NCBI GenBank assembly: GCA_003542955.1
Contig: DPJP01000373.1
Location: 143 to 23,001 of the forward strand
DNA: 22,859 bases
Direction: 5' to 3'
DNA from: Armatimonadota bacterium
GTDB taxonomy: Bacteria; Armatimonadota; Zipacnadia; Zipacnadales; UBA11051
Positions within the stretch are counted from its first letter, which is position 1; each line of letters starts with the position of its first letter. The notes under the pieces are model-generated. The model did not search any database. It was given only the letters and a program-made list of their open reading frames with translations, and was not told where the DNA came from. Made by a program: the position numbers and the translations under genes. Of the stretch, positions 873-20,135 are shown piece by piece.

Positions 873-941
873 TACCCGCCCCGCAAGCCGGTGTCAGTCT
901 ACCCCGGCTACGCCGTCGGGAGTCGTGAAGGAGGAGCGGAG

Positions 942-2186
942 TTGGCAAGTGAACTGATTATGCAGTGGCAGGATATCGTCCGCTGGGGCGCAGAGCAGAA
1001 GGCCTCCGACGTATTCTGGAAGGCCGGTGTACCGCCGTCGGTGAAGCTGCAGGGCCGTGTCACGCGCCTGACCGACAAGCCCGTACTCACGCCGGAGGAT
1101 ACCGAGTGGCTGGCGCGTGAGCTGATGACCGACGAGCAGTGGCAGGAGTTCCAGACCTACCCGGAGCGCGACATCGGCTTGACCATCGGTGATGCGTGCC
1201 GGCTGAGAATCAACATCTTCCGGCAGCAGGATACCTGCGCGATTGTCATGCGCATCATCCCGCTCAACATCCTCAGCATCGAGGACCTCGAGCTGCCGGA
1301 AGTCCTCAACGACATCGCGCTACGACCGCAAGGACTGGTCCTGGTCACGGGGCCGACGGGCTGCGGCAAGTCGACAACGCTGGCGGCGATGCTGGACCTG
1401 ATCAACCGCAAGCGGCAGTGCCATATCGTCACCGTCGAGGACCCGATCGAGTACGTGCACCGCGACCGGATGTCGATTGTCAGCCAGCGCGGCGTTGGTG
1501 TGGACACCGCGGACTTCCAGGACGCGCTGAAGTTTGCCATGCGGCAGGCGCCCGACGTCATCCTGATCGGAGAGATGCGCGATACGACGACGATGTCGGT
1601 CGCGATGCAGGCGGCAGAGACGGGCCACCTGGTCTTCTCGACGGTCCACACCACCTCGGCCGCCGAGACCATGGAGCGCATCATCAACATGTACCCGCCC
1701 CATGACAAGCCGCAGATCTGCATGCGGATGTCGCGGAGCCTTGTCTCGGTTCTCTCGCAGGCGCTGGTCCCGCGGGCGGGAACCTCCGGGCGTGTCGCGG
1801 CCATCGAGATCATGGTTGTGACGCCGACGGTCTCGAAGTTCATCGAGGAAGGCAAGCCGGGGGAGATGTACTCGGCCATCGTCGAGGGCGCCCACTGGGG
1901 TATGCAGACAATGAACCAGGCGCTGCTGAAGCTGTACCGGCAGGGTCTGGTCTCGGCCGACCACTGTATGCACTACGCGGGCAACTACACCGAGATGCGG
2001 CAGATGCTTCGCCTCGAGGACGGTCTGGCCAAGGACAAGGCGGACGCCGACGCCAAGAAGGCTGCCGCGGAGGCGGCCAAGCGGAAGGCGCTCAGACGCC
2101 AGCAGCCACAGCAGCGGCCCGACGCCCCGGAGGGCACCAATGGCGCGCCGCCACCCCCGCCGGCGGAGCCCACTCCCGAGCAGTAG
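942..2186 (+). CDS. PilT/PilU-family type IV pilus retraction ATPase, paralog 1
   Basis: 414 aa from a TTG start. AAGGAGG sits 7 nt upstream, better placed than for the GTG at 891 or the ATG at 960. It is a cytoplasmic hexameric secretion-type ATPase. Visible are the N-terminal PilT PAS-like part (ASDVFWKAGVPPS), Walker A GPTGCGKST (about 137-145), Asp box VTVEDPIEYVH (about 163-173), Walker B ILIGEMRD (about 207-214) and the His box around AAETGHLVFSTVHT. The N-terminal wording (SDVFWKAGVPPSVKLQG) resembles PilU more than PilT. After the normal end it carries a roughly 45-residue Lys/Ala-rich then Pro-rich tail (KKAAAEAAKRK, then PPPPPAEP) not usual for PilT. It is followed after 116 nt by a paralog. 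PilT/PilU pairs normally power retraction, with PilU depending on PilT. Confidence 0.9.
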   Translation: MASELIMQWQDIVRWGAEQKASDVFWKAGVPPSVKLQGRVTRLTDKPVLTPEDTEWLARELMTDEQWQEFQTYPERDIGLTIGDACRLRINIFRQQDTCAIVMRIIPLNILSIEDLELPEVLNDIALRPQGLVLVTGPTGCGKSTTLAAMLDLINRKRQCHIVTVEDPIEYVHRDRMSIVSQRGVGVDTADFQDALKFAMRQAPDVILIGEMRDTTTMSVAMQAAETGHLVFSTVHTTSAAETMERIINMYPPHDKPQICMRMSRSLVSVLSQALVPRAGTSGRVAAIEIMVVTPTVSKFIEEGKPGEMYSAIVEGAHWGMQTMNQALLKLYRQGLVSADHCMHYAGNYTEMRQMLRLEDGLAKDKADADAKKAAAEAAKRKALRRQQPQQRPDAPEGTNGAPPPPPAEPTPEQ

Positions 2187-2302
2187 GCGAGCGGCGTGTT
2201 CCGAGCAACTCAGAGCGGCGGCTCCCGCGCCTGATTGATATGTCCAGCATGGCCCACGCACAGCATCATCCTGATGATGGGAAGAGAGGCCGGTGAGGAT
2301 CG

Positions 2303-3523
2303 ATGGCAACCGAAGAGAAGGCTGAGAAGAAACAGTGGCGTCGCACAGTGAGCGCGCCGGCCGACCTCGCCAAGCGGGGCGGCGACATCATGGACCATGA
2401 GATGATGGACATGCTCCTGGAAGGCTGTGTGAAGATCGACGCCTCCGACCTGCACCTGACGTTCGGCGAGCCGCCCGTCTATCGCCGGCACGGCCAGATG
2501 ATTGAGATGAGCGGCTTCAAGCTCATGGGTCACGAGGACATGATCGAGGCCTGCAACGTGTTCCTTGGGCAGAACACGCCCGACAACCGCTACTGGGCGC
2601 GGTACTATGAAAGCGGCGGCGCGGACATTGCCTACACGCTGGGCGATCTCGCCCGCTTCCGCGTCAGCGTGTTTCAGCAGCGCCAGCACCCCGCGCTCGC
2701 GTTGCGGATGATCCCGTACACGATGCTGACCTTCGAGCAGCTCGGGCTGTCGGAGCGGCACATGATCCCGCTGCTGACGCGCCCGCGCGGCATCATCCTG
2801 ACCACGGGCCCCACCGGCAGCGGTAAGAGCACGACGCTGGCATCCATGATCAACTGGATCAATGAGAACCGCTCGGTGCACATCGTCACCATCGAGGAGC
2901 CGATCGAGTACTACCACCCCAACAAGCGCTCGCTGATCAACCAGCGCGAGGTGGGCGTGGACGTGATCACCTTCGCCGAGGCCGTCGTTCGGAACATGCG
3001 CTCAGACCCCGACATCATCCTGCTGGGTGAGATGCGTGACCTCGAGACGATGCGCGCGGCGCTGCAGGCTGCTGAGACGGGCCACCTTGTGTTCGCGACA
3101 CTGCACACGGTCAGCGCGCCCAAAACCATCGACCGCCTGGTCACGGCCTTCCCGGCGGCGGAGCAGGAAGAGATCCGCGCCATGCTGTCAACCTCGCTGG
3201 CCGCCGTCATCGCGCAGGAGTTGGTGCCGCGCTGTGACAAGGACGGCCGCATCGCCGCGCATGAGGTAATGATGGGCGAAGCCGCGGGGTCGGCTGCTAT
3301 CGGCAACCTCATCCGCGAACGGAAGACCTCCCAGATGCGCACGACCATCCAGAGCAGCGCCAACCTCGGCATGAAGCTGATGGAACAGTCGCTGGCCAAG
3401 TTCGTCAATGAGGGGAAGATCGAGTTCCTCGAGGGGTTCAACAGGTCAAACGAGAAGACCGACTTCCTGACCTTCGTGGACTCGGAGAGGATACCGGCCG
3501 GGTTCACATTCAAGGATGAGTAG
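2303..3523 (+). CDS. PilT-family type IV pilus retraction ATPase, paralog 2
   Basis: 406 aa. The start is ATG with GAGG four nt upstream. After a charged 30-residue leader, the N-terminal domain carries ASDLHLTFGEPPVYRRHG (about 47-64). Walker A is GPTGSGKST (169-177), the Asp box is VTIEEPIEYYHP (about 195-206, with Glu-Glu in place of the usual Glu-Asp), Walker B is IILLGEMRD (238-246) and the His box is AAETGHLVFATLHT (256-269). The C-terminal NLIRERKTSQM segment matches the conserved PilT NLIREGK-x2-Q region. These are the hallmarks of an active twitching or retraction ATPase. No pilin, PilC, PilM or PilQ gene is visible here, so the rest of the apparatus must be elsewhere. A 6-bp hairpin (2264-2279) lies just before its ribosome binding site. 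Confidence 0.92.
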   Translation: MATEEKAEKKQWRRTVSAPADLAKRGGDIMDHEMMDMLLEGCVKIDASDLHLTFGEPPVYRRHGQMIEMSGFKLMGHEDMIEACNVFLGQNTPDNRYWARYYESGGADIAYTLGDLARFRVSVFQQRQHPALALRMIPYTMLTFEQLGLSERHMIPLLTRPRGIILTTGPTGSGKSTTLASMINWINENRSVHIVTIEEPIEYYHPNKRSLINQREVGVDVITFAEAVVRNMRSDPDIILLGEMRDLETMRAALQAAETGHLVFATLHTVSAPKTIDRLVTAFPAAEQEEIRAMLSTSLAAVIAQELVPRCDKDGRIAAHEVMMGEAAGSAAIGNLIRERKTSQMRTTIQSSANLGMKLMEQSLAKFVNEGKIEFLEGFNRSNEKTDFLTFVDSERIPAGFTFKDE

Positions 3524-14685: not shown

Positions 14686-14814
14686 CGAATGCCCGGGACA
14701 GGGCTCAGCCGGCGCGCTTCGCAGAAGGGCCGCGCGGGGAGGCGCCACGGAGTAACGCAGGGCTCCCATCCGGCCCGTGCGGAACGACCCCTTCCGCGTC
14801 AAGACTCTGCCGCC

Positions 14815-15315
14815 TCAGCGCTCCTCCCCGACTACCACGACGTCCTCTGAGTCCGCACCGCCGGCAGCGCGCACGACCGCCTTCGAGATGACGACCTCAC
14901 CACGGCGCAACTGCCGCGCCGCCTGGTTGGCCGCATCACCGACGATGTCGAATCTGCGGATCGACGGCGGGCCCATCTCGCCCGCAACGACAGGTCCCAT
15001 CGCCAGTGCGACGGCTAGCCGCATGCCGGCGCGGTCGCCCACGCACGACCTCAACTGGTCGAACTCCCTGCGCATCCTGCCCGCAGCCTCGAGCGCCCTG
15101 GTGGCGTCGGTGGGCTCCCATACGATCAGCGCCGCGTCGCCGATGGTCTTCACCAGTCTGCCCCCGTACTGCTCCGCGATGGGCAGGACCTGCTCATAGA
15201 ATGCCGACAGGAACGCGTAGACCTCGCCGGTGGTATGACCCGATGTGCCTTCGGAGTAGTGCCGTATATCGACGAACCCGACGATCATTTGCCTGACTGG
15301 CGGCATTCCACTCAT
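14815..15315 (-). CDS. Stand-alone class III adenylyl cyclase catalytic domain
   Basis: 166 aa; ATG at 15315, preceded by an 11-nt perfect complement of the 16S 3' end (AGGAGGTGATC). It converts ATP to cAMP. All six canonical class III residues are present with standard spacing: metal Asp16 (FVDIRHYSE) and Asp60 (KTIGDA), base-selecting Lys56 and Asp123 (RFDIVGDAAN), and transition-state Asn130 and Arg134. D16-D60 is 44 residues, and D123, N130 and R134 follow the classic +7/+4 pattern. The Lys/Asp pair indicates adenylyl rather than guanylyl specificity. There is no sensor, membrane or HAMP domain, so activity would be controlled by transcription or by partners. Active enzymes of this class are dimers. 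It is divergent from the membrane-protein/winged-helix operon and shares its intergenic inverted repeats. Confidence 0.92.
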   Translation of the reverse strand: MSGMPPVRQMIVGFVDIRHYSEGTSGHTTGEVYAFLSAFYEQVLPIAEQYGGRLVKTIGDAALIVWEPTDATRALEAAGRMRREFDQLRSCVGDRAGMRLAVALAMGPVVAGEMGPPSIRRFDIVGDAANQAARQLRRGEVVISKAVVRAAGGADSEDVVVVGEER

Positions 15316-15418
15316 CACGATCACCTCCTCTGAAGGCGCGCAGCGCGCACCTCCTCCATTGAGTGTTCTACCCGTCTGACTTCGGGGCGTGCTCAAGTGA
15401 TTCTCAAGTACTCGATAC

Positions 15419-15433
15419 GTTTGTGTTCCAAAC
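15419..15433. promoter_or_regulatory. Operator-like inverted repeat A
   Basis: GTTTGTGTTCCAAAC, an inverted repeat of the form GTTTG-N5-CAAAC, about 104 bp upstream of the cyclase start codon. Its centre is 17 bp from that of repeat B. Confidence 0.6.
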
Positions 15434-15435
15434 AA

Positions 15436-15450
15436 GTTTGCAGAGCAAAC
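15436..15450. promoter_or_regulatory. Operator-like inverted repeat B
   Basis: GTTTGCAGAGCAAAC, with six-base arms GTTTGC and GCAAAC around a 3-nt centre, perfect. It has the same GTTTG-N5-CAAAC form as repeats A and C. It is separated from A by only two bases, so the pair could bind two dimers cooperatively. Confidence 0.65.
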
Positions 15451-15641
15451 CATGTGAACCCGGTCGCGTGGGCGCGTACTGCCTGCCGGCCACATTTGCT
15501 GCCGTGAAGCCGTTCGGAGGCCCAACGCGGTCGACGGCCGAGCGGTCTCGCGCGCCGGCCATCTGTTCCGGCGCTCGGGGGCGGCGTGCGCCTCTTGTCC
15601 AGGCATGCGGCATCAGGCTCCCATCGACGGGCGCGATTGCC

Positions 15642-15670
15642 TTGACTCGTGCTATAGTTTGTGCTACAAA
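15642..15670 (+). promoter_or_regulatory. Sigma70-type promoter of the membrane-protein/winged-helix operon
   Basis: TTGACT (15642-15647), a 17-bp spacer and TACAAA (15665-15670). Transcription would start near 15677, leaving a leader of about 118 nt before the GTG at 15795. The -10 box lies inside operator-like repeat C. The rest of 15316-15794 has no coding signal beyond shadow frames. Confidence 0.65.
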
Positions 15671-15674
15671 CTAT
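15654..15674. promoter_or_regulatory. Operator-like inverted repeat C, overlapping the -10 box
   Basis: Perfect 9-bp arms ATAGTTTGT (15654-15662) and ACAAACTAT (15666-15674) around a 3-nt centre. Its 15-bp core (15657-15671) matches repeats A and B as GTTTG-N5-CAAAC. Occupancy would cover the spacer and -10 of the operon promoter, as expected for an autorepressor. The likely ligand is the winged-helix protein encoded at 16540-16833 (inference). Confidence 0.75.
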
Positions 15675-15794
15675 CTGACAATTCAGACTATTGCCCTCCA
15701 CAAAGTAGTATGCATCGCAGACCATCGCCGTCCGGGCTCACTTCCACAGCAGCCGCAACGTGTGCAAGGAGCCTGAGACGCGGGAGGGACGCCG

Positions 15795-16553
15795 GTGACA
15801 CAACTCCACCGGGACTTGCGCGGACCCGCCATCGACGGGTTCGTTGCGTGGGATCGCAGGCGGGCTCAGGCGCATCGGCCGGGGCGGGTATTCACCGGCC
15901 TGTATGTCGCCGGTTGCGCCGCGGCTCTCGCCCTCGGCTATCTCACTATCCGGACTCACCAGAACGGGCTGCCGCTGCTCGCGGCCACCGGAGTCGTGCT
16001 GTTATCCGCGACCGCGGTCGCGATGCTGTGGCTGTGCACCCCCGGCGGTGAGCGCCTCGTCAACGCCGTCGCCGACCGCACGTCGCGCCGCACGGAGCCC
16101 ACGTCGGTCGTTGACTTTCCGGGCGCGTCCTGGGTGCCCGACGGCGTACCGAGCTGGGTCTGGCTCTCGCTGGTGTTCTGCATACTGGTGCAGACGGGCT
16201 TGAGCGTGCTCGGTGTCGTGCCCGCAGTGTTGATGCAGCCGCTGTCGATCATCTGGGCGGTTCCGCTGCTCTACCACGCGTCGGGGAGGTTCTTCAGACG
16301 CTTCCACCCGCTCAAGATGCTCTGGCCCGGTTTGTACGGGGTCCACGCCGTGCTCGTTCTGCTGGGGCTGCCGCTGAGTCTCGGATCGCCGCTTCAGGGG
16401 CTGGACATCCTCATGCCGGGGGCCGTCTACGGGCTGATCGCCTGCGCCGCGGCGCAGGCGCATCGCCACCTGGCGCTCCAGCACACCCGGGCAATTGCGC
16501 GCAGCCCGCAGACACACCGCTGTGTGCGGGGCCAGAAGCATGTCCGAAGTTGA
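15795..16553 (+). CDS. Six-helix integral membrane protein of unknown function, in an operon with a winged-helix regulator
   Basis: 252 aa; GTG start with GGGAGGG about 6 nt upstream. Family not recognised. Predicted helices are at about 33-51, 60-81, 120-141, 143-160, 177-195 and 205-222. A roughly 40-residue hydrophilic loop follows helix two (about 82-119), and both termini are Arg/His-rich and probably cytoplasmic. The end overlaps the regulator gene by 14 nt, indicating translational coupling. Small winged-helix regulators are often encoded with the membrane protein or transporter they control, so a transport or sensing role is possible but not shown. Confidence 0.75.
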   Translation: MTQLHRDLRGPAIDGFVAWDRRRAQAHRPGRVFTGLYVAGCAAALALGYLTIRTHQNGLPLLAATGVVLLSATAVAMLWLCTPGGERLVNAVADRTSRRTEPTSVVDFPGASWVPDGVPSWVWLSLVFCILVQTGLSVLGVVPAVLMQPLSIIWAVPLLYHASGRFFRRFHPLKMLWPGLYGVHAVLVLLGLPLSLGSPLQGLDILMPGAVYGLIACAAAQAHRHLALQHTRAIARSPQTHRCVRGQKHVRS

Positions 16554-16833
16554 CCCCGTCATCCACCAGCCGACCCGTCTGCGCATCATGATGCTGCTTT
16601 CAGGTGTGCGGAGCGCGGACTTCACCTTCCTGGCCGGGGCACTGGCGCTGACCAAGGGCAATCTCTCCTCCCACATGAACCAGCTCGAGAAGGTCGGCTA
16701 CATCGAGATCACCAAGACCTTTAAGGGCAAGATGCCCAACACCAGCTACGCCATCACCGCGGAGGGCCGCAGGCAACTGGGTGCCTACTGGCAGGCCATA
16801 GACGAGATTCGTCGGCTCACGGTCTCGGACTGA
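16540..16833 (+). CDS. Small winged-helix (MarR/HTH_34-like) transcriptional regulator
   Basis: 97 aa from the ATG at 16540, inside the end of the membrane-protein gene. The whole protein is one winged-helix domain of the PF13601 (HTH_34) type: first helix PTRLRIMMLL (about 11-20), second helix and turn FTFLAGALALTKGNLSSHMNQLEKVGYIEI (about 28-57, recognition helix NLSSHMNQLEKVG), then a Lys-rich wing (TKTFKGKMPNTSYAITAEG) and a C-terminal dimerisation helix (RRQLGAYWQAIDEIRRL). There is no ligand-binding domain. Such proteins bind inverted repeats as dimers. The three GTTTG-N5-CAAAC repeats upstream of its operon are the obvious candidate sites. Confidence 0.88.
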   Translation: MSEVDPVIHQPTRLRIMMLLSGVRSADFTFLAGALALTKGNLSSHMNQLEKVGYIEITKTFKGKMPNTSYAITAEGRRQLGAYWQAIDEIRRLTVSD

Positions 16834-16854
16834 TTGCCGAGGCCCTTGACACAG

Positions 16855-16885
16855 AAAACCGCCCGGCGGTTGTCCACCGGGCGGT
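16855..16885 (-). terminator. Rho-independent terminator of the flotillin operon
   Basis: A perfect 9-bp stem, ACCGCCCGG (16858-16866) with CCGGGCGGT (16877-16885), has a 10-nt loop. The AAAA at 16855-16858 is a TTTT tract when read on the minus strand, so it terminates transcription coming from the flotillin gene. On the plus strand there is no T-run, so it would be at most a weak terminator for the winged-helix gene. Confidence 0.8.
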
Positions 16886-16912
16886 CTGCACCTCAGCTAT
16901 GCCCTGGATGCC

Positions 16913-18535
16913 CTATACACCCGGGTCGGCCTGCGTGGTGTCAGGGGCCGCTGCCTTACGGGCCGGGGCCTCCTGACCGCGGCCGCCGGCGAGCTTCTCG
17001 TTCAACAGGCTGGCCAGGTCCAGCCCGAACATCGCCTTCAACTGCTCATTGAAGGCAAGGAACTGCTCGGGTATCTGGTTGACCAGGCCGGCGATCGGCG
17101 TGGTCTTGCCGTCGCCCCGGCCGTTGCCGCCGATATCGACGATCGAGATGCTGTCGACTGCGGCCAGGCCGTTCCCGATGGCCTCCATGGGCCACCGCAT
17201 GGCGCTGATGATATCCGGGTACTGCTCGAGCAGCATCTGGAGCACAGCCGCATCGCCGTACTGGCGCCACGCGTCGGCCTTCTCCATCATGCCTTCGGCC
17301 TCCGCGAGCAGGCGCGCCTTGATGGCGTCGGCTTCCGCCATACCCTTGGCGCGGATGGCGTCGGCTTCACCCTCGCCGGCGGCACGGGAATGAGCACCGT
17401 CACCCAGACCGCCGCGCTCGCGCTCGGACTGGTCGGCTTCCGCGGCCCTGATACGCGCGTCGCGCGCACCCTCGGCCTTCAGCACTGCCGCCTGCTTGTT
17501 GCCCTCGGCGTCGACGATCGCCGCCTGGCGCTTTGCCTCGGCGTCGATGATCAGACGCTGCCGCTCGGCCTCGGCCGGCTTGATCACCGTCGCGAGCAGT
17601 TCCTGCTCCCTGCGCAGGGCCTCCTGCTCCTGAACGGCGATCTGCGCCTGCCGCTCCAGTTCCTCGATCTTGACCTCTTCCTGCTTGACCTGCTGGCGGG
17701 CCTGAGCGGATGACAGCGGCCCGGCCTGGTCGGCCTTGGCCCGCTCGGCCTCCGCCTGGGCATCAAACTGCGCCACCTTGATGCGCTTGTCGCGCTCCGC
17801 ATCGGCGATGCCGACGTCGGCCTGTATCTTCGCCGTCTCACCGATCTTGCGGGCCTCGGAAGAGGCGAGGTCGGCGTCTCGCTGGGCCTGCGCGATACCT
17901 ACCTGCGCGTCGCGGCGGACCTCGGCGATGCGCCGCTTGCCCAGCGCCTCGATATAGCCGTGGTCGTCGGTGATCTCGCGGATCGGCATGTTGTCGATGA
18001 GCAGCCCCATCGTCTCGAGGTCGCTGGCGGACTGCTCGACCAGGTTCGATGAGAATGCGGCCCGGTTGCGGATCAGGTCCTCGACCGTCATCGTGCCGAC
18101 GATTGCGCGTAGGTGGCCCTCCATCGTCTGCTGGATGAGTTGGTAGACCTCACGCTCATCCATGGTCAGGAAGCGCTCCGCGGCAGCTCGCTGCAGGCTC
18201 TCGGTGGAGCCTATCTTCACGTTTGCGAGCGCATCGACACGCACCGGCACGCCATCGATGGTGACCGAGGCGGTCGTCGTGACCGGGATCGGCATCACCT
18301 CGAGCGACAACCACTCGACCGACACAACGACAGGCCATCTGACGAAGCCTCCGCCCTGAACCAGGCGGAAACCTGTCCGCGCACCCTCCGCGTCGCGTGA
18401 CCGACGCCCGAACACAACCGCTACCCGGTTCGGGGGGACGCGAACGTAGTACCTGGCTATGATCCCCAGGAACGCGAACAGCAGCAGTATCAGGAGCCCG
18501 ACGTACAGCGCGATCATCCCTATGCCTTCGAACAT
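16913..18535 (-). CDS. floT: Flotillin-like SPFH/Band 7 membrane scaffold protein
   Basis: 540 aa; ATG at 18535 with AAGGAGG 7 nt upstream. An N-terminal membrane helix (about 7-27) precedes an SPFH domain (about 30-190, with RVPPNRVAVVFGRR and SVTIDGVPVRVDALANVKI). A long Ala/Glu/Lys/Arg coiled coil runs to about 430, with heptad-like KRQAAIVDAEGNKQAAVLKAEG and AIRAKGMAEADAIKA. A C-terminal segment contains QMLLEQYPDIISAMRWPMEAIGNGL. The protein oligomerises at the inner face of the membrane in functional microdomains. It lies 35 nt downstream of the YuaF/NfeD-like gene, the same pairing as yuaF-floT in Bacillus. A Gly-rich patch (about 383-398) interrupts the coiled coil. Confidence 0.92.
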   Translation of the reverse strand: MFEGIGMIALYVGLLILLLFAFLGIIARYYVRVPPNRVAVVFGRRSRDAEGARTGFRLVQGGGFVRWPVVVSVEWLSLEVMPIPVTTTASVTIDGVPVRVDALANVKIGSTESLQRAAAERFLTMDEREVYQLIQQTMEGHLRAIVGTMTVEDLIRNRAAFSSNLVEQSASDLETMGLLIDNMPIREITDDHGYIEALGKRRIAEVRRDAQVGIAQAQRDADLASSEARKIGETAKIQADVGIADAERDKRIKVAQFDAQAEAERAKADQAGPLSSAQARQQVKQEEVKIEELERQAQIAVQEQEALRREQELLATVIKPAEAERQRLIIDAEAKRQAAIVDAEGNKQAAVLKAEGARDARIRAAEADQSERERGGLGDGAHSRAAGEGEADAIRAKGMAEADAIKARLLAEAEGMMEKADAWRQYGDAAVLQMLLEQYPDIISAMRWPMEAIGNGLAAVDSISIVDIGGNGRGDGKTTPIAGLVNQIPEQFLAFNEQLKAMFGLDLASLLNEKLAGGRGQEAPARKAAAPDTTQADPGV

Positions 18536-18570
18536 CTCACTGCCTCCTTACAGACCCACTCATACGGCGT

Positions 18571-19170
18571 CTATACAGCCCTGACTATCAGGGTACTGCC
18601 GATCTGCTCGACAACACGAACGGTGGCGCCCGCCGCAACGTGCTCATCGGGGTTGCTCACGCGTGCAAGCGACTTCACAGCGGTGCCGCGCACGTTGACC
18701 CTGACCTCGCCCATGCCACCGGCCGGGATCGCCGTCAGCACCACGCCGTCCTGCCCGATGAGGTGCGCGACACCGATGGTGCTGGTCGCCTCCTGCTGAT
18801 GCAAGAAGCGCATGAAGTAGTACACCGCCAGCGCCATGGCAAATCCGACCAGGGCGCCGAACGGCAGGCTCATCACGCCCCAGGACAGGCCGTCCAGGCC
18901 GATCAGTCCACCCCAGCCCCATCCGCCAAGGAAGGCCATCATCGTCCGGATGCTCACCGGGCTTGGCCCGCCTTCGCCCTCGCCCATGTCGTGCCCATGC
19001 CCCAGGTCGCCCTCGGCATGCAGGTCGATGTCATGGCCGATGTCGATATCCGCATCGTGGCCGAAGTCGTGTTCTGCCCCGAACACCAGCAGCGCAATCA
19101 CAACCAGCGTCCCGACCCCACCCATGACCCAGTAGCAGAGCCGCAGGAATTCAATGGTCTCCACCGTCAT
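18571..19170 (-). CDS. YuaF/NfeD-like membrane protein with OB-fold C-terminus
   Basis: 199 aa from the ATG at 19170, with GGAGA and GGAGG elements upstream; earlier in-frame ATGs lack a ribosome binding site. Helices lie at about 11-31, 75-95 and 98-120. Loop 33-65 holds a striking His/Asp cluster (H34, D35, H38, D39, D41, D43, H46, D47, D49, H51, D55, H58, H60, D61). The C-terminal 70 residues form the NfeD/YuaF OB-like barrel (GQDGVVLTAIPAGGMGEVRV, then TVRVVEQIGSTLIVRAV). NfeD-type proteins partner with flotillins, and this gene precedes the flotillin gene in one operon. Acidic loops here are common in this family, but the histidine content suggests metal binding. Confidence 0.88.
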   Translation of the reverse strand: MTVETIEFLRLCYWVMGGVGTLVVIALLVFGAEHDFGHDADIDIGHDIDLHAEGDLGHGHDMGEGEGGPSPVSIRTMMAFLGGWGWGGLIGLDGLSWGVMSLPFGALVGFAMALAVYYFMRFLHQQEATSTIGVAHLIGQDGVVLTAIPAGGMGEVRVNVRGTAVKSLARVSNPDEHVAAGATVRVVEQIGSTLIVRAV

Positions 19171-19230
19171 CGCCTCCGTTCTCCGATAGGCACTGCTTAC
19201 ACATTCGCGCAGCACGGCATGCAGTCCTAC

Positions 19231-19248
19231 CAGTTTGATACGAAACTG
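19231..19248. promoter_or_regulatory. Inverted repeat between the divergent YuaF/NfeD-flotillin and PspA genes
   Basis: CAGTTT (19231-19236) and AAACTG (19243-19248) are a perfect six-base inverted repeat with a six-base centre, 61 bp upstream of the NfeD-like start and about 200 bp upstream of pspA. It could be a shared operator. I found no convincing sigma70 or SigW-type promoter in this 275-bp region. Confidence 0.4.
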
Positions 19249-19445
19249 CGGGCAATTGTGCGCTCTGCCCAATCATCTGCCCGTAGTATTGTGTCGCGGC
19301 TGTATCGGGTTTTGTCTACCGACTCGACGATTCCGCCTGCGGCCGCCCGTCGGTGTCGCCGCCGGTTGCAGGATTCATCACCGTCCGCTCGGAACCGTAG
19401 AGGGACACAGTCACTGTCCGCATTCAGTCCCCGAGAGGTCTCGCC

Positions 19446-20135
19446 ATGTCTGGAGCACTCGACCGCCTGAAGGCGCTGATGAGGGAGAATCTCGACGCGA
19501 AGCTCGCGCGCTCCAAGAGCCCGGACCGCCTGCTCGAGCAGTATGTTGAGCGTGCGATGGCGGTTCGGGGTGAACTGCGCGAGGAACTCGTCGATGCCCG
19601 AGCGGAGTTGCTGCTGGTTCAGCAGCGGCAGAACGCCTCGGAGGAGCAGGCGCGCAACTGGGGAGCGCGCGCGCTTGATGCCCTGCGCCGAAGCGACGAA
19701 CAGGAGGCCCGGTCCGCGCTGCGCCGCCAGCGCAGCTTCGAGGTGGCGCTCGAGGATTGGGCGGATGCCATCTCCGCGCATGAGCAGACCGTCAAGAGCC
19801 TCGAGCAGGCCAGCCGCAGCCTTGCGGAGCTGCTCGAGGATGCCGAGCTACGCATGACCTCCCTCGTCTCGCGCCAGAAGGCAGCCAGGGCCGCCCTGCG
19901 CGTTCAGACCGTGCTCCAGGCCGTCGGCGACAGCCAGTCGACCGACTCCGAGAGGATGGTCGAGTCGGTCGAGGAACAGGAGGCACGGGCAGCGGCGATG
20001 GCGGAGGTGGCCGCGCGCACCGTCAAGGACCGCATCGCGCAGTTCGAGCGCGGCGCCGCCGATGCGGAGATTGAGCTCCGTCTCGAGCAGATGAAGCGGA
20101 GGCTCCGGGAGCCGGGGCAGACAGAGCGCCAGTAA
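19446..20135 (+). CDS. pspA: PspA/IM30 (ESCRT-III-like) membrane-stress protein
   Basis: 229 aa; ATG with AGAGG about 7 nt upstream. PspA/Vipp1 proteins form ESCRT-III-like helical polymers that protect and remodel the inner membrane. The sequence is almost entirely helical and shows the family layout: an N-terminal amphipathic start followed by LKALMRENLDAKLARSKSPDRLLEQYV (the usual 'NINDLLDKAEDPEKML' region), then long coiled coils rich in Arg, Glu, Gln and Ala (about 30-160), and a final helix FERGAADAEIELRLEQMKRRL. It is divergent from the YuaF/NfeD-flotillin pair, genes that belong to the same envelope-stress response in Bacillus (SigW regulon). Confidence 0.9.
   Translation: MSGALDRLKALMRENLDAKLARSKSPDRLLEQYVERAMAVRGELREELVDARAELLLVQQRQNASEEQARNWGARALDALRRSDEQEARSALRRQRSFEVALEDWADAISAHEQTVKSLEQASRSLAELLEDAELRMTSLVSRQKAARAALRVQTVLQAVGDSQSTDSERMVESVEEQEARAAAMAEVAARTVKDRIAQFERGAADAEIELRLEQMKRRLREPGQTERQ

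Follow-up and report, generated by a model that had tools for sequence, protein, structure and literature searches.

A probable operator of HTH_34 regulators and its three copies between a nucleotide cyclase gene and a membrane protein–regulator operon in an Armatimonadota bacterium

Three copies of the palindrome GTTTG-N5-CAAAC lie between a nucleotide cyclase gene and an oppositely oriented operon in the 22,859-nucleotide stretch of Armatimonadota DNA analysed here (the window), and they raise the question of which protein binds them and which genes are thereby controlled. Site 1 (GTTTGTGTTCCAAAC, positions 15419..15433), site 2 (GTTTGCAGAGCAAAC, 15436..15450) and site 3 (GTTTGTGCTACAAAC, 15657..15671), all read on the plus strand, are where a preliminary description of this DNA had put them, and its statement that the window holds no further match stood even when one mismatch was allowed. 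In 100 shuffled versions of the window the mean was 0.21 matches, and three were reached in one shuffle. The whole assembly (6,644,211 bp in 512 contigs) contains exactly these three copies and one copy of the reversed-pattern control. Since about two exact copies per genome are expected from base composition, three within 253 bp are far beyond chance. The centres of sites 1 and 2 are separated by 17 bp, and the joining sequence, CAAAC-AA-GTTTG, forms an inverted repeat of its own. A longer pattern, RGTTTGYNNNRCAAACY, matches sites 2 and 3 exactly and does not include site 1; with one mismatch it is found in two extra places in the assembly, a number equal to that of the reversed control.

The operon on the plus strand starts with a gene for a multi-transmembrane protein of 252 aa (15795..16553, P0002), which has a GTG start behind GGGAGGGACGCCG and matched no Pfam or NCBIfam family. 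It overlaps by 14 bp the gene for a 97-aa protein (16540..16833, P0001), and overlap or close spacing of these two genes is common among homologous loci. The small winged-helix regulator that had been described in this operon is present, P0001 being a member of the HTH_34 family (PF13601, 84.8 bits against a cut-off of 27, positions 2-79 of 80). Its structural model has a winged-helix fold with a C-terminal helix as in 1ub9, the nearest fold, followed by proteins of the MarR/HxlR type. The Pfam HTH_5 domain is also above its cut-off (32.8 vs 22). Assignment as an ArsR metalloregulator was rejected, with 27.3 bits against the 55 of NCBIfam HTH_metalloreg and no cysteine in the protein, as were the SdpR family (15.0 bits vs 100 required by NF033789) and MarR and PadR, for which the Pfam scores were under the cut-offs. 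Proteins resembling SPFH/flotillin, NfeD (27 bits, below the cut-off of 29.1) and PspA/IM30 adjoin the operon at 16913-20135 and are perhaps a membrane-stress set. At 891-3523 the window also holds two neighbouring T2SSE secretion ATPases (PF00437), and adjacent ATPases of this kind are familiar from type IV pilus clusters.

The third site was described as a 9+3+9 palindrome covering the -10 element of a promoter, and the letters agree: the palindrome is perfect from 15654 to 15674, and its right half forms the -10 (15665-15670) of the predicted operon promoter TTGACT-17-TACAAA (15642..15670, plus strand, -35 at 15642-15647). This is the top plus-strand promoter candidate of the intergenic region, with a score of 14.1 where the 99% background value is 15.1. 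A strict promoter scan of 14700-17000 returned no promoter and so missed that of site 3, whose -10 does not end in T.

Presence of the motif upstream of orthologous operons had been set beforehand as the test of the proposed operator. A search with 25 aligned HTH proteins yielded 285 loci, of which the best 80 were retained, and the upstream region was taken as the 1 kb before the HTH gene (two of the 80 loci had less than 900 bp). Of these best 80 of 285 loci, 26 have the exact core upstream of the HTH gene; such sites number 28 in 79 kb, as compared with 2 in the remaining 619 kb. The controls, four permuted palindromes and the core with its spacer altered to 3, 4, 6 or 7 bp, gave no copy upstream of the HTH genes. 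The motif extends outward in the relatives, and a 27-bp matrix was built from 34 sites, three of them the window's, with the consensus AAACTAGTTTGTACTACAAACTAGTTT and a score threshold of >=15; sites 1, 2 and 3, belonging to this training set, score 23.0, 27.6 and 24.3, and site 3 has counterparts upstream of homologous operons. The matrix found operators upstream at 47 of the 80 loci, 21 of which lack the exact core and hence were not training loci, and the matches amounted to 63 positions in 79 kb upstream vs 2 in 617 kb elsewhere. The remaining 33 loci have no operator by matrix within 1 kb of the HTH gene, and 24 of them are titled Hydrogenedentota, Hydrogenedentes or Hydrogenedens; two Hydrogenedentota loci (L093 and L124) do have one. 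Judged by record titles, the operator is found at the HTH gene in Armatimonadota, Planctomycetota, Acidobacteriota, Chloroflexota, Deinococcota, Myxococcota, Actinomycetota and Bacillota. At ten Thermoactinomycetaceae loci and at L093 no gene for a transmembrane protein was found before the HTH gene and the operator is located directly upstream of the latter, at 63-103 bp, so the motif tracks the regulator and not the membrane protein. No fixed neighbour gene emerged from a Pfam scan of 26 of the 48 neighbouring genes, downstream or divergent, that were considered; 74 families were matched, and among the 25 of these listed none matched more than two of the neighbours.

Placement relative to promoters is also shared by part of the loci. 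Of 76 operators, 14, including site 3 of the window, have a TTGACA-like hexamer (5 or 6 of 6 positions) 15 bp ahead of the core, as compared with at most 6 operators at any of 24 other offsets. In these 14, of which L011 and L052 represent one genome, the -35 stands 17 bp before the right half-site, itself placed as the -10, and this -10 reads TACAAA or TATAAA in all except L094.

The regulator and the motif are further linked by residue 39. This residue, a lysine in P0001, opens the predicted recognition helix (codons 39-51, 16654..16692, plus strand) and covaries with the outer base pair of the operator. When the inner eight bases may contain one mismatch, K, R or N at position 39 goes with an outer G:C pair (GTTTG) at 49 of 50 loci, and D or W with an outer C:G pair (CTTTG) at 13 of 13 (L012, L038, L039, L041-L046, L048, L049, L098 and L106); 38 further loci had no such site. 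With zero mismatches the corresponding counts are 30 of 30 and 9 of 9. The lone exception, L056, has a poor palindrome and is probably a chance match. A tree built from 62 of the proteins requires the operator type to change three times, with two of these changes forced by the starred branches, and because independent switches are this few the Fisher P values overstate the evidence from residue 39.

Occurrence over whole genomes was followed with an extended pattern. Twenty genomes picked for their motif-bearing loci gave 28 matches, vs 7 for the reversed control. By comparison of coordinates 21 of the 28 are at the module of the two genes (in 19 genomes) and 7 are elsewhere (in G155, G161, G163 and G169); in G163 the module site is off by one flanking base, and the sole exact match is elsewhere. 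Since 16 of the 20 genomes have the pattern nowhere but at the module, the regulon seems as a rule to consist of the module only. A second sample, 12 genomes drawn from the 33 loci without a module operator, gave 9 extended matches in 8 genomes (control 2) and none anywhere in the other 4. Seven of the nine, in seven Hydrogenedentota/Hydrogenedentes genomes (L169-L175), precede genes of one small exported-protein family (163-205 aa, PWFVDNA ... SYAHLLPPG); the remaining two (L176 and L177) do not. Six of the seven promoters concerned read TTGAC(A/T)-17-TACAAA, while in L172 the -35 is one base further off. These placements suggest that the HTH_34 protein would act in trans on the exported-protein genes in Hydrogenedentota. 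Of this family five members tried against Pfam gave one weak match, under the cut-off, and a search run without a positive control did not find it in the genome of the window or in 150 relatives.

From these comparisons the HTH_34 protein encoded behind the multi-transmembrane protein very probably has GTTTG-N5-CAAAC as its operator. The regulator's predicted site lies in its own promoter, and autorepression of the two-gene module is well supported by comparison across loci; this part of the earlier proposal, an autorepressor that also controls cAMP synthesis, has held. We therefore favour with considerable confidence a self-regulated two-gene module, in which a repressor dimer would sit on site 3 and sites 1 and 2 would either repress the cyclase gene or assist site 3. 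The intergenic DNA would be the control region of the pair made up of the membrane protein and a small HTH_34 repressor of MarR/ArsR-like fold. Bound to site 3, the putative dimer would cover the -10 together with the 3' portion of the spacer and so block RNA polymerase. Residue 39, going by its covariation, may read the outer G:C pair of each half-site and account for part of the specificity. Sites 1 and 2, on the side of the divergent cyclase, would make up a tandem operator of four half-sites for the same repressor. The membrane protein is most likely a sensor or partner that relieves the repression, by analogy with SdpI/SdpR.

Whether the cyclase belongs to this circuit is a separate matter. 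Its gene is transcribed opposite to the operon, as had been described (14815..15315, minus strand), and encodes a protein of 166 aa from an ATG at 15315 behind AGGAGGTGATCGTG, a start backed by this ribosome-binding sequence and by the 166-aa homologues P0130 and P0133. The protein matches PF00211 (38 bits against a cut-off of 21.9, E 1.7e-9, determined on the longer ORF) and cyclases in the PDB as well. D16, K56, D60, D123, N130 and R134, which we take to be the catalytic residues, are all present in the sequence. The PF00211 domain together with the expected Asp pair, Lys, Asp, Asn and Arg places it among the class III adenylyl cyclases.

In the first reading of sites 1 and 2 they are the operator of the cyclase gene, and the repressor would also set the synthesis of cAMP or another cyclic nucleotide. 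We give this reading close to an even chance. The two sites precede the cyclase start by 104-135 bp, and the two best minus-strand promoter sequences overlap operators: TTGTCA-16-AACTAT, the top candidate, crosses site 3, and TTCACA-17-TTGTTT (15430..15458, minus strand), which may be a weak cyclase promoter, spans site 2 and part of site 1. Both are however weak, with scores of 9.2 and 8.4 vs a 90% background value of 8.8; promoter scans of the region found no strong cyclase promoter, and sites 1 and 2 lack the composite of promoter and operator seen at site 3. Homologues of the cyclase and the HTH protein, twice also of the transmembrane protein, are on longest contigs of equal size: 99,774 bp (P0006, P0014 and P0130), 4,601 bp (P0010 and P0132) and 5,340 bp (P0005, P0013 and P0133). 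This suggests that the linkage of cyclase and module is kept in three close relatives, equal size not being proof of identity. Cyclase homologues of the same genus in G001-G003, with 48-53% identity, come from genomes that gave no HTH or transmembrane-protein match, and in agreement with a common control the DNA around these cyclase genes shows no motif as far as it was covered, the upstream part being just 10 bp long in G001 and some 300 bp in G002. The operators at other genes in Hydrogenedentota likewise speak for targets outside the module. Against this, a tblastn search with the cyclase (E <= 0.1) over the module loci L001-L129 returned the window's own stretches only, and P0133, whose contig also seems to carry the module, has D16 and N130 replaced. 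A receptor for the product would be expected to contain PF00027, and this gave 0 matches in the assembly, which is 89.98% complete so that a gene may have been missed; the search control was positive in 10 of 14 genomes. To that extent the assembly shows no sign of cAMP signalling of the CRP type. Unlike autorepression, control of cAMP synthesis, the other half of the earlier proposal, is not well supported by the comparisons, though a link of the cyclase to the module is plausible.

Sites 1 and 2 may instead be auxiliary operators of the module promoter, working through looping or cooperative binding with the cyclase as a bystander, a reading that we hold at somewhat below an even chance; between it and control of the cyclase the choice is about even. 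Single modules are served by operator pairs elsewhere, 45 bp apart at eight Actinomycetota loci (L094, L097, L100, L113, L116, L119, L120 and L123), 46 bp in L089, 48 bp in L090, 58 bp in L125 and 64 bp in L096. The distance from site 2 to site 3, 221 bp, corresponds to 21.05 helical turns at 10.5 bp, but site 1 is out of phase with site 3 at 22.67 turns. Spacings across the loci are also shorter, 17-70 bp, except in L108 (184 bp) and L103 (about 2.7 kb). In the last, Hazenella coriacea, good operators are at -2779 and -82 from the HTH start, and the distal one, near other genes, is a possible further target.

Activation or dual regulation by the HTH_34 protein, in place of repression, is unlikely. 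Small winged-helix proteins are able to activate, and 62 of the 76 operators have no good -35 at the offset found in the window, but in the window, its near relatives and the sites in trans the core promoter is taken up by the operator, and a dimer bound there should keep polymerase out. Binding of the motif by some other transcription factor is very improbable, given that in various phyla the motif accompanies HTH_34 genes, whether or not a transmembrane-protein gene precedes them, and that its outer pair varies together with the HTH_34 recognition helix.

With the self-regulated module as the preferred reading, the HTH_34 family gains a predicted operator together with a likely target, a way of acting and a specificity residue that can be tested, in at least eight phyla by record titles. 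Should the cyclase indeed be a second target, the locus would illustrate in simple form how a local repressor module can recruit a signalling enzyme. More tentatively, all the loci may be instances of a widespread and apparently undescribed membrane-gated switch, made up of a transmembrane protein and an HTH_34 repressor with usually one strong operator per genome and a one-residue specificity rule at position 39, which in single lineages would have captured a further target, the exported protein in Hydrogenedentota and the adenylyl cyclase in the Armatimonadota lineage of the window, in the latter case for CRP-free transcriptional control of cyclic-nucleotide synthesis. In the literature searched, which included few subscription journals, no title or opening of an abstract dealt with this regulator or its operator, and a term search of PMC8457756 gave no match.

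Among known systems the nearest in structure is PH1061 of Pyrococcus horikoshii (1ub9), which is named only as a hypothetical protein or transcriptional regulator homologue, and for which we know of no operator. The class III adenylyl cyclases share with the window protein the PF00211 domain and the canonical residues, the difference being that the latter is a free-standing catalytic domain of 166 aa. The MarR and HxlR/DUF24 repressors (MepR, OhrR, YodB and HxlR) differ in that the HTH protein of the window is under the MarR and PadR cut-offs of Pfam, and presumably also in their operators, which we take to be unlike the one found here. In Bacillus subtilis the membrane protein SdpI sequesters the autorepressor SdpR in response to SdpC, according to PMC1626106, and the likeness to the window is in an operon whose two genes encode a small autorepressor and a multi-transmembrane protein. 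In the window, by contrast, the membrane-protein gene comes first, P0001 reaches 15 bits of the 100 needed for SdpR, and P0002 is without a family. Even so, of the known cases in which a membrane protein relieves a repressor of this kind, SdpI/SdpR comes closest.
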